NCBI RefSeq assembly: GCF_011250645.1
Contig: NZ_JAANNO010000001.1
Location: forward strand, 332,658-396,657
Source of the DNA: Motilibacter aurantiacus
GTDB taxonomy: Bacteria > Actinomycetota > Actinomycetes > Motilibacterales > Motilibacteraceae
Direction of reading: 5' to 3'
DNA length: 64,000 bases
A program made the translations under genes and the position numbers. Shown here piece by piece: positions 33,265 to 38,143 of this stretch (within the stretch, counting starts at the first letter, position 1; each line of letters opens with the position of its first letter). Under the pieces are notes generated by a model. It had not been told where the DNA came from. It saw nothing but the letters and a program-made list of their open reading frames with translations, and searched no databases.

Positions 33265-33308
33265 GTCAACCGACGTTGACAGCCCGCGCCTCGTCAACCT
33301 ATGTTGAC
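33265..33308. promoter_or_regulatory. twin palindromic operators upstream of HTH/Clp_N pair
   Basis: Two copies of GTCAAC-N4-GTTGAC at 33265-33280 and 33293-33308, with centres 28 bp apart. The second ends 3 bp before the HTH start codon. The arms are identical in both copies while the spacers differ (CGAC, CTAT), as expected of a protein-binding site rather than a duplicated segment. Confidence 0.75.
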
Positions 33309-33311
33309 GAC

Positions 33312-33542
33312 ATGAGCGAGACGACCGACCTGCTCGGGGCAGGGACCAGCTCGGACCCCGACGAGGGCCTGCGGGCCGTCGCCGCGCTACGCCTGCTCGT
33401 GGAGCAGCTCGAGGCGCTGCAGGTGCACGCCGCCCGTCAGCAGGGCTGGTCGTGGGCGGACATCGCCGCCCTGCTCGGCGTCTCGAAGCAGGCCGTCCAC
33501 AAGAAGCACGCCGGGCGCGCGCCGCTCGGGAAGGAGAGCTGA
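33312..33542 (+). CDS. small helix-turn-helix protein
   Basis: 76 aa. The C-terminal half is an HTH (GWSWADIAALLGVSKQAVHKKHA). The N-terminal half is a helix with an EGLRAVAALRLLVEQLEALQ pattern that may dimerise. It sits 3 nt before the double-Clp_N gene, and the two are likely one transcription unit. The twin palindromes right before its ATG make autoregulation the simplest reading. Confidence 0.88.
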   Translation: MSETTDLLGAGTSSDPDEGLRAVAALRLLVEQLEALQVHAARQQGWSWADIAALLGVSKQAVHKKHAGRAPLGKES

Positions 33543-33545
33543 CCC

Positions 33546-34103
33546 ATGTTCGAGCGCTTCACCAAGCCCGCCCGTGCCGCCGTCGTGCAGTCCCAGGTCG
33601 AGGCCCGGCGGCTGGGGCACGACCGGATCGACGACAGCCACCTGCTGCTCGGTGTGCTCGCCCAGGAAGCCGGCGTCGGCGCTCGGGTGCTCACGGAGCT
33701 CGGCGTGGGGCTCGACGCCGCCCGGGACGCGGTGGCCGCCCTGCACGCCCCGGACGCCCAGGCCCTCGGGGCACTGGGGATCGACCTGGACGAGGTACGC
33801 CGGAAGGCCGAAGCGGCGTTCGGGGAAGGCGCCCTCGAGCGGCGCTTCGCCCGACGGCGCGGGTTCTTCCGGCGCAGCACCGGCCACATCGCGTTCACCC
33901 GCCCGGCGAAGGCGGCGCTCGAGGACGCGCTGCGCCAGGCGCTCACGCTGCGGCACAACTACATCGGCACCGAGCACCTGGTGCTGGGGCTGCTGACGGG
34001 AGGCTCCTCCACGGCCGGCCGCGTCCTGCACCGGCTGGGGGTGCGGGTGGACGCGGCCGAGCTGCGCCGCCGGGTCCTGGACGAGCTCGGGCGGGCGGCG
34101 TAG
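33546..34103 (+). CDS. stand-alone double Clp_N domain protein
   Basis: 185 aa with two Clp N-terminal repeats. The first is about residues 3-60 (FERFTKPARAAVVQSQVEAR ... DDSHLLLGVLAQEAG), the second about 115-180 (IAFTRPAKAALEDALRQALT ... GTEHLVLGLLTGG). There is no AAA+ ATPase module, so it is not an unfoldase itself. It could be an adaptor or a substrate-binding module for ClpC, or a heat/envelope stress sensor. Always read with the upstream HTH gene. Confidence 0.9.
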   Translation: MFERFTKPARAAVVQSQVEARRLGHDRIDDSHLLLGVLAQEAGVGARVLTELGVGLDAARDAVAALHAPDAQALGALGIDLDEVRRKAEAAFGEGALERRFARRRGFFRRSTGHIAFTRPAKAALEDALRQALTLRHNYIGTEHLVLGLLTGGSSTAGRVLHRLGVRVDAAELRRRVLDELGRAA

Positions 34104-34130: not shown

Positions 34131-35366
34131 ATGACCCCGACCCTGATCTGGAGCGCGCTGATGACGAAGCCCGTCGACCTCGCCACCACGCCCCGCAAGG
34201 CCCTCTCCCTGCTGCTGCTCACCTGCCTGCTCGGGCTGCTCGCGGGGGTCGCCGCCCCGCCCGCCCAGGCGTCGCGCGCCCACCCCCGCGTGGAGCAGCG
34301 CGACGCCGCGCTGCAGCGGGCCGTCGACGCGATCGTCGCAGCCGGTGCCAGCGGGGCAGTCGTCCTCGTCGACGACGGCACGGACGCCTGGCAGCAGGCG
34401 AGCGGTGCCGCCCGGCTCGAGCCGGAGCAGGCCTGGCGCCGCGACGAGAAGGTCCGCATCGGCAGCATCACCAAGACGTTCGTGGCCACGCTCGTGCTGC
34501 AACTGGTCGACGAGGGCAGGCTGTCGCTGGAGGACGACGTCGAGGAGTGGGTGCCCGGCCTGGTGCCCGGCGGCGTGGGGATCTCCCTCCGCCACCTGCT
34601 GCAGCACACCAGCGGGCTCTTCAGCTACAGCGAGGACGAGGCGTTCCTGGACGCCTTCGTCACCGACCCCGAGCGCTCGTTCACCCCCGGCGAGCTCGTC
34701 GCGTACGCCGTGGCCCACCCGCCGCTCTTCGCGCCGGGCGCGGACTGGTCGTACTCGAACACCAACTACGTGCTGCTGGGCCTGGTCCTGGAGAACGCGA
34801 CGGGTGAGAGCCTGCGGTCGCTGCTGCGCGACCGCATCATCAAGCCGCTCGGCCTCACCCACACCAAGTTCCCGGCCGGCGCCACCATCCCCGGCAAGCA
34901 CGCGGCCGGCTACCTGCCGCCCTCGCTGACCGGGCTCACGGAGCTGCTCGACGTCACCGGGGTCAACCCCTCCTGGGCCGGGGCGGCTGGCGCACTGCTG
35001 TCCACCACGACGGACGTGCGCGACTTCTACCGGGCGCTGCTCTCGGGCGAGCTGCTCTCGCCCGCCTCCCTCGCCGCTATGAAGCAGACCGTTCCGATCG
35101 AGGAGGGGACCGCGTACGGGCTGGGCCTGCTCTCGATCGAGACGCCATGCGGCACCGTCTGGGGCCACGACGGCTCCGTCACGGGCTATTCGACATACGC
35201 CCTGAGCAACGAGTCGGGCACACGGAGCATGGTGCTCGCCTTGCCGACGACGCCTGACGAGGCGATCAGCGCTGCGCAGCTACGGGCCCTGTCCATCGCG
35301 GTGTGCGCGATGTACGGTCGATCGGCACCGGCCCGTACGCTCGTTGCCGGGGGCGCCGGAGGCTGA
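34131..35366 (+). CDS. exported serine hydrolase (class C beta-lactamase / DD-peptidase fold)
   Basis: 411 aa. An N-terminal signal peptide (ALSLLLLTCLLGLLAGVAAP, ending near AQAS) precedes a serine-hydrolase domain. It has the SxxK motif in GSITKTFVA (about residue 112), YSN in WSYSNTNYVLLG (about 207), and the third motif as HDG in WGHDGSVTGY. The order and spacing are those of D-alanyl-D-alanine carboxypeptidase/esterase family S12. The ATG at 34161 is an alternative start. Likely acts on peptidoglycan or esters outside the cell. Confidence 0.93.
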   Translation: MTPTLIWSALMTKPVDLATTPRKALSLLLLTCLLGLLAGVAAPPAQASRAHPRVEQRDAALQRAVDAIVAAGASGAVVLVDDGTDAWQQASGAARLEPEQAWRRDEKVRIGSITKTFVATLVLQLVDEGRLSLEDDVEEWVPGLVPGGVGISLRHLLQHTSGLFSYSEDEAFLDAFVTDPERSFTPGELVAYAVAHPPLFAPGADWSYSNTNYVLLGLVLENATGESLRSLLRDRIIKPLGLTHTKFPAGATIPGKHAAGYLPPSLTGLTELLDVTGVNPSWAGAAGALLSTTTDVRDFYRALLSGELLSPASLAAMKQTVPIEEGTAYGLGLLSIETPCGTVWGHDGSVTGYSTYALSNESGTRSMVLALPTTPDEAISAAQLRALSIAVCAMYGRSAPARTLVAGGAGG

Positions 35367-36783: not shown

Positions 36784-36878
36784 ACGACGGCCCTTCGGCG
36801 TGCCTCTGACACGGTGAGGGGCCACCGCGTGAGTCTCTGCGTGAACCCGCCAAGGAACACGTGGAAACGGAGTCCGCG

Positions 36879-38143
36879 ATGGCCCTGGACCAGTCTGCCC
36901 TGCTCGAGGTTCTGGACGCACTGAAGGCCGCCGAAGTCGACGAACGCGTCCGGCTCGCGGCCGAGACGATCTACCAAGCGCTGATCGAGGCCGAGCTCAC
37001 CGCCGTGATCGGCGCCGCCCGTTCGAGCGCACCGACGCCCGCACCGGCCAGCGCAACGGGCACCGGCCACGGACGCTCACCACGCCGGCCGGCGACCTGG
37101 AGCTACGCATCCCCAAGCTCCGGGCCGGCTCGTTCTTCCCCAGCCTGCTCGAGCGCCGCCGCCGGGTCGACCGCGCGCTGTTCGCGGTCGTGATGGAGGC
37201 CTACCTGCACGGCGTCTCCACCCGCAAGGTCGACGACCTGGTCCGGGCGCTCGGGGCGGACTCCGGGATCTCCAAGTCCGAGGTGTCCCGGATCTGCGGC
37301 GAGCTCGACGCCGACCTCGCCGCGTTCCGCGACCGGTCGCTGGCCGGGCAGGCCTACCCGTACGTGTTCCTGGACGCCACCTACTGCCACGCCCGAGTCG
37401 GCGGCGAGCAGGGCTCCCCGGGCGGCGGGCGCGGCGGCAGGGTCGTGTCCCAGGCGGTCGTGATCGCCACCGCGGTCGCCGCCGACGGGCACCGCGAAGT
37501 CCTCGGCTACGCGGTCGGCGACAGTGAGGACGGCGCGTTCTGGACCGCGTTCCTGCGCGCCCTGAAGGCCCGCGGCCTCAGCGGCGTCCAACTGGTGGTC
37601 TCTGACTCCCACGAGGGGCTGAAGAAGGCCATCGGCGCGGTCCTGCTCGGCGCGTCCTGGCAGCGGTGCCGGGTGCACTTCATGCGCAACGTCCTGGCTC
37701 GGGTGCCGAAGGGCAGCGCGGAGATGGTCGCTGCCGCGATCCGCACCGTGTTCGCCCAACCGGACGCCGAGCACGTCCACGGCCAGCTCGACGTCATCGC
37801 CACCATGCTCGGCCGCCAGTTCCCCGCCGTCGAGCAGATGCTGCGCGACGCCGCCCCGGACGTCCTGGCGTTCGCCGGTTTCCCCGCCGCGCACTGGAAG
37901 AAGATCTGGTCGACCAACCCGCTCGAGCGGCTGAACCGGGAGATCAAGCGCCGCACCGACGTCGTCGGGATCTTCCCCAACCCCGACGCCCTCGCCCGGC
38001 TGGCCGGCGCCGTCCTGCTCGAAGCCCACGACGAATGGCAGGTCACCGACCACCGCTACCTGTCAGAAGGCTCCATGGCCCTGCTCACCGGCAAGACCCC
38101 ACCCCAGAAGGAGGTGGCGCAACCCCAACTACTCGGCGCATAG
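36879..38143 (+). pseudogene. IS256-family transposase with 1-nt frameshift
   Basis: A DDE (MULE-type) transposase. The N-terminal 45 residues (from MALDQSALLEVLDALKAAEV to LTAVIGA) are in one frame. From about 37014 the correct frame is shifted, reading PFERTDARTGQRNGH and then the rest to the stop at 38143. The total of 1265 nt is one short of 422 codons, consistent with one lost base near GGCGCCGCCCG (37010-37021). Catalytic residues are in YVFLDATYCH (first D), VVSDSHEGLKKA (second D) and RLNREIKRRTDVVGIFPN (E). IS256 elements do not normally use programmed frameshifting, so it is likely inactive unless this is a sequencing error. Confidence 0.88.

Follow-up and report, generated by a model that had tools for sequence, protein, structure and literature searches.

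A putative two-gene form of the ClpC2 system in Motilibacter aurantiacus and its predicted operators among Actinomycetes

Cyclomarin, ecumicin, ilamycin/rufomycin and lassomycin all target ClpC1; against cyclomarin, cells are known to have a countermeasure in ClpC2. In Mycobacterium, ClpC2 is an autorepressor acting through the palindrome CGTCAAC-n5-GTTGACG, which is often doubled and lies over the -35 and -10 elements of a promoter with a leaderless start; binding of cyclomarin to the C-terminal Clp_N part lifts this repression, and the protein acts as a sponge that shields ClpC1 (PMC10030653). Ecumicin and ilamycin bind ClpC2 without inducing it (PMC12913811). According to a review, ClpC3 of M. 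smegmatis is a second small Clp protein that binds cyclomarin and ecumicin (PMC10864484); it is possibly a Clp_N protein of the split type described below. RelI, the antitoxin of the RelS-RelI system (Rv2663-Rv2664), is a member of the actinobacterial HTH group that also includes the HTH protein described below; its partner is a RelE-superfamily RNase, whereas ours is a Clp_N protein.

The window (the whole stretch of 64,000 nucleotides of M. aurantiacus DNA that was analysed) contains a small HTH gene followed by a stand-alone Clp_N gene. Literature searches on such a split HTH-Clp_N pair found nothing, and an earlier note on this DNA knew of no characterised function for it; mycobacterial ClpC2 (Rv2667) is, however, a characterised fused counterpart with homologous parts (PMC10030653), and the window module can therefore be seen as a characterised system in split form. 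Judging from comparative sequence analysis, we consider it probable that the pair works as a two-gene ClpC2 system, in which an HTH dimer would repress its own operon and the Clp_N protein would be both a decoy and a sensor whose occupancy relieves repression.

The gene pair and its predicted operators

The locus comprises the following features, with positions counted in the window:

33265-33280: predicted distal operator, GTCAACCGACGTTGAC, GTCAAC-CGAC-GTTGAC; assigned from the sequence and from a tandem layout kept in 191/204 HTH+Clp_N pairs
33276-33281, + strand: predicted -35 hexamer TTGACA, overlapping the right arm of the distal operator
33293-33308: predicted proximal operator, GTCAACCTATGTTGAC, GTCAAC-CTAT-GTTGAC; 3 nt 5' of the HTH start codon
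33300-33305, + strand: predicted -10 hexamer TATGTT, within the proximal operator
33312-33542, + strand: HTH gene, 76 aa; homologue of the ClpC2 N-terminal domain, recognition helix SKQAVHKK
33546-34103, + strand: stand-alone Clp_N gene, 185 aa; ClpC1 N-terminal domain fold, no ATPase
34131-35366, + strand: PF00144 serine hydrolase (beta-lactamase-like), 27 nt 3' of the Clp_N gene

Two GTCAAC-N4-GTTGAC palindromes with identical arms, unlike spacers and centres 28 bp apart, followed by a 76-aa HTH gene and an ATPase-less Clp_N gene, had been reported in the earlier note, and all lie where it placed them. The distal palindrome supplies a perfect -35 hexamer with its right arm and the -10 hexamer falls within the proximal site, so that both palindromes are predicted operators. 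A promoter scan recovered TTGACA-18-TATGTT with 10/12 matches and gave none in shuffled sequences. Since the ATG of the HTH gene is only 6 nt 3' of the -10 hexamer, the HTH-Clp_N transcript is probably leaderless.

A genome-wide scan for GTCAAC-N4-GTTGAC, proposed earlier as a way to define a regulon, returned two exact matches in the whole 4.59-Mb genome, both at this locus. With one mismatch allowed, the N4 pattern was also found in a paralogous module (contig C2) and at a single asymmetric site (C13), against one match in the reversed-pattern control, and no further convincing N4 operator site was found in the genome by the exact and one-mismatch scans. One-mismatch N5 matches besides the fused clpC2 pair numbered 11 genome-wide, against 3 in the reversed control.

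The HTH and Clp_N domains of the window module are homologous to those of ClpC2 and follow one another as they do there; both systems also have, directly before the start codon, GTCAAC/GTTGAC arms in two sites about 28 bp apart over the -35 and -10 elements. ClpC2 is one gene encoding a single polypeptide, whereas the HTH and Clp_N proteins are encoded by separate ORFs with a TGA between them. The arms, doubling and position of the ClpC2 operator recur here but its spacer length does not, being four nucleotides in the window and the split family and five in ClpC2 (36/36 sites in 18 fused loci).

The HTH protein matched in profile searches both the ClpC2 N-terminal structure 8ADA (E 3.7e-4) and the fused ClpC2 of its own genome (i-Evalue 7.9e-13), and the salt-bridge pair of the ClpC2 dimer is kept in the split HTH family (E/D in 201/204, R in 185/204). 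Its fold is assigned from sequence profiles and predicted helices, the structure searches having mainly concerned the Clp_N part (model residues 78-263). Homology of this HTH family to the antitoxin RelI (Rv2664), along with small abutting genes and likely autoregulation, would also suit a toxin-antitoxin-like pair, with the HTH protein as antitoxin and the Clp_N protein as a toxin that might, for example, jam ClpC1. We give this arrangement a slim chance, given that the gene beside the window HTH encodes a Clp_N protein and not a RelE-superfamily toxin or RelE-fold nuclease, and that a strong increase in the fused counterpart ClpC2 is protective and not harmful to cells (PMC10030653). The hydrolase gene is possibly the third gene of the operon; a PF00144 homologue also follows the HTH-Clp_N pair in a genome of the same genus (G001, locus L017) and at locus L192. 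Further along the window, at 36861-38143, ORFs resembling by eye a mutator-type (IS256-like) transposase were seen, apparently in two frames.

Conservation and the probable reading of the half-sites

HTH homologues were found in 258/393 class-level genomes and in 94/137 genera, fused ClpC2 in 109/387 class genomes, and the exact tandem N4 pattern in 51/387, with none from the reversed control among the matches listed. A Clp_N gene lies directly 3' of the HTH gene in 204/238 HTH loci, a sample rich in Streptomyces so that the counts are not independent. Tandem N4 palindromes were sought in these loci by agreement among the four half-sites only, with no consensus prior and a cut-off of at least 20/24, which was reached at 208/238 loci and in 4/238 shuffled upstream regions. 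Tandem GTCAAC-N4-GTTGAC-type sites stand just 5' of the start codon in 191 of the 204 HTH+Clp_N pairs; the earlier note had named absence of palindromes upstream of homologous pairs as grounds for refutation, and they are instead conserved class-wide. The two sites are 27-29 bp apart, almost always 27-28 bp, and the end of the proximal one is usually 3-4 nt from the start codon. Its spacer reads xTAx in 85% of related loci, against 7% for the distal spacer, as expected if the -10 element lies only in the proximal site. Conversely, all 28 newly listed class loci with an exact tandem (L323-L350) have a family HTH just downstream, on one strand. The combination of tandem palindromes and gene pair is far beyond chance.

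The recognition helix of the family has the consensus LGVSRQAVHKK, and two of its positions vary with the operator half-site. Following the conserved Q, the helix has A where the half-site is GTCAA-, S where it is GTCAGT (10/11) and T where it is GTCAGC (9/10); following the conserved H, it has K for GTCAAC, R for GTCAGC, A/T/N for GTCAGT, H/Y for GTCAAA and Q for GTCAAG. The first of these positions was associated with operator base 5 (table 19/2/1/185; Fisher p 1.2e-23, uncorrected for phylogeny). Mapped on a tree of the Clp_N partners, the residue shows 3 changes, base 5 shows 4 and their joint state also 4, with agreement at 185/186 tips; the covariation thus comes from about three independent residue changes, nearly coincident with the base changes. 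This is strong sequence evidence that the HTH protein reads the palindromes. The earlier proposal of a compact autoregulated module draws support from this covariation, from the conserved operators over the promoter and from the lack of other convincing sites in the genome, and the split family yields a testable specificity code.

By separating DNA reading from ligand sensing, the split form also indicates where ClpC2 itself reads DNA, a point on which the published structure, lacking the recognition helix, is silent. The crystal structure of the ClpC2 N-terminal part, 8ADA, stops at residue 72 (GV) owing to proteolysis (PMC10030653), which is exactly before this helix. DNA contact was assigned to R185/R189 of the Clp_N part, and a helix-turn-helix is mentioned nowhere in the main text (PMC10030653). 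By extension, the window Clp_N protein might itself contact the operator, with the HTH protein a dimerisation or auxiliary factor, and indeed ClpC2 R185A/R189A binds DNA less well and clpC2 expression rises 2.0-fold in the equivalent M. smegmatis strain (PMC10030653). We hold this to be very improbable in the split system. R189 is R in 18/18 fused proteins but in only 17/203 split ones, being A or G in most of these and T in the window protein, while the operator arms are unchanged; the half-sites track HTH residues; and this operator is also seen before HTH genes for which no Clp_N partner was detected. In ClpC2 itself, the N-terminal dimer mutant R57A raised expression 4.6-fold, more than the arginine double mutant (PMC10030653). 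The recognition helix of the fused proteins, [ST][KR]QAAQKR, has the A and K that accompany GTCAAC in the split family, and the simplest reading would be that DNA is recognised mainly by the N-terminal HTH in split and fused proteins alike; the effect of R185/R189 in fused ClpC2 could then be indirect or add affinity. The likeness of RelI to the ClpC2 HTH region was already reported in 2026 using HHpred (PMC13284704), so the idea of an HTH in ClpC2 has a precedent.

The Clp_N protein and the proposed circuit

The 185-aa Clp_N protein has two Clp_N repeats (Pfam E 2.9e-24) and no AAA domain was detected in it by Pfam. An AlphaFold model of the HTH-Clp_N read-through chain had a pLDDT of 39.6 from the single sequence and of 87.8 overall with a 74-row alignment. 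In structure searches, the Clp_N part matched the ClpC1 N-terminal domain (NTD) with Z 24.1 (rmsd 1.6 A over 142 residues), ClpT1/ClpT2 with Z 20.1-20.9 and the ClpC2 domain (8AD9) with Z 17.6. It thus models as a stand-alone version of the domain with which ClpC1 receives its substrates, sharing its fold and ligand surface, and differs from ClpC1 in having no AAA modules, a longer inter-repeat linker (about 37 residues) and DDSH in place of the first GTEH motif; the second, NYIGTEH, is intact. The contacts for cyclomarin-type ligands are kept at F2, R10, V13, Q17, H77, F80, K85, L88, E89, L92 and L96, with one checked residue changed (P79 to A). F2, F80 and E89 are likewise present in ClpC2, although the window protein is nearer to the ClpC1 NTD than to the ClpC2 domain and does not keep ClpC2 R189; as this arginine is not conserved in the split family, findings on ClpC2 carry over only in part. 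Across the split family the same site is incompletely retained (F2 in 162/203, F80 in 144/203, E89 in 137/203), which may reflect different ligands.

The plant proteins ClpT1 and ClpT2 are also stand-alone double Clp_N proteins. Their match to the model would suit a role for the window protein as an accessory or adaptor of ClpC1P1P2 or of a ClpP complex, without sensing, the HTH protein being a simple autorepressor that fixes a constant low level. This seems unlikely to us, as the ClpC1 NTD is the closer match and the drug-contact surface is kept, and as pairing with a repressor over many genera would suit inducible control better. The earlier note had offered two roles for the Clp_N protein: that of a sensor feeding back on the HTH factor fits the behaviour of fused ClpC2, whereas that of an adaptor for ClpC gained no positive evidence. 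The model matches the receptor domain to which adaptors of the MecA/ClpS type bind; no adaptor fold was among the structure matches, which would still be compatible with an adaptor function.

In the split ClpC2 system that we favour, an HTH dimer, paired with its sites by comparative sequence evidence, would bind the two palindromes that overlap the -35 and -10 elements of the probably leaderless promoter before its gene and repress the operon. The Clp_N protein would capture whatever would otherwise occupy or poison ClpC1, most likely cyclomarin-type peptides or damaged or arginine-phosphorylated proteins; once occupied, it would stop supporting repression by the HTH protein, and more decoy would be made. 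A direct Clp_N-HTH complex, as against an indirect effect, would be the simplest link between the two, because the homologue is fused and the genes are tightly paired, overlapping or abutting. Some split HTH proteins have other partners (PF00144 hydrolase, MoxR-type AAA), so Clp_N is not required for the use of the HTH.

Related modules and other partners

The M. aurantiacus genome also encodes ClpC1 and a ClpB-type protein, and has three HTH/Clp_N modules in all. A second split pair (L014, 1480-2276) is preceded by two ATCAAC-N4-GTTGAC/T sites 28 bp apart; its Clp_N is degenerate and its recognition helix contains a proline (ISPQAAHKK), beside the altered half-site ATCAAC. The third module is a fused 247-aa protein (L015/L218) with two GTCAAC-N5-GTTGAC sites, the last one 2 nt before the ATG, which matched mycobacterial ClpC2 structures with 160-190 bits for the Clp_N part and 118 bits for the N-terminal part. 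Other genomes with several modules also use unlike codes, G323 for example combining GTCAAA, GTCAGC and GTCAGT with a fused N5 module. We suggest, tentatively and with rather less than even confidence, that Actinomycetes carry a family of split ClpC2 modules insulated from one another, every module having a separate operator code (spacer N4 or N5; half-site GTCAAC, GTCAGC, GTCAGT, GTCAAA, GTCAAG, AGCAAC), so that several ClpC-receptor decoys per cell might answer different ClpC-targeting toxins; in one family this operator also stands before an ABC exporter. One or more such decoy modules are predicted in Streptomyces and in many further actinomycetes.

Free Clp_N proteins also occur on plasmids. 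In Mycobacterium intracellulare, a mobilizable plasmid of 13.5 kb carries a gene for a free, ATPase-less protein resembling the ClpC1 NTD (L318, 2500-2938), similar free Clp_N matches occur in other M. intracellulare/avium plasmids, and no family HTH was found with the plasmid Clp_N genes of M. intracellulare and M. branderi.

The following loci were chosen for not coinciding with listed HTH matches and are thus not a random sample. In six genomes (L354-L359, family f17), an exact tandem GTCAAC-N4-GTTGAC precedes a gene that looks like an ABC exporter (at L354, Pfam gave PF00664+PF00005) and lacks an adjacent HTH gene; this exporter is possibly regulated in trans by the HTH of a module. A MoxR-type AAA ATPase gene directly follows a family HTH (L283, L205) or a tandem operator (L351), and PF00144-like serine hydrolases follow family HTH genes without Clp_N at L268, L294 (directly) and L296. 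The exporter, hydrolase and MoxR loci fit a detoxification role, a fit and not a proof.
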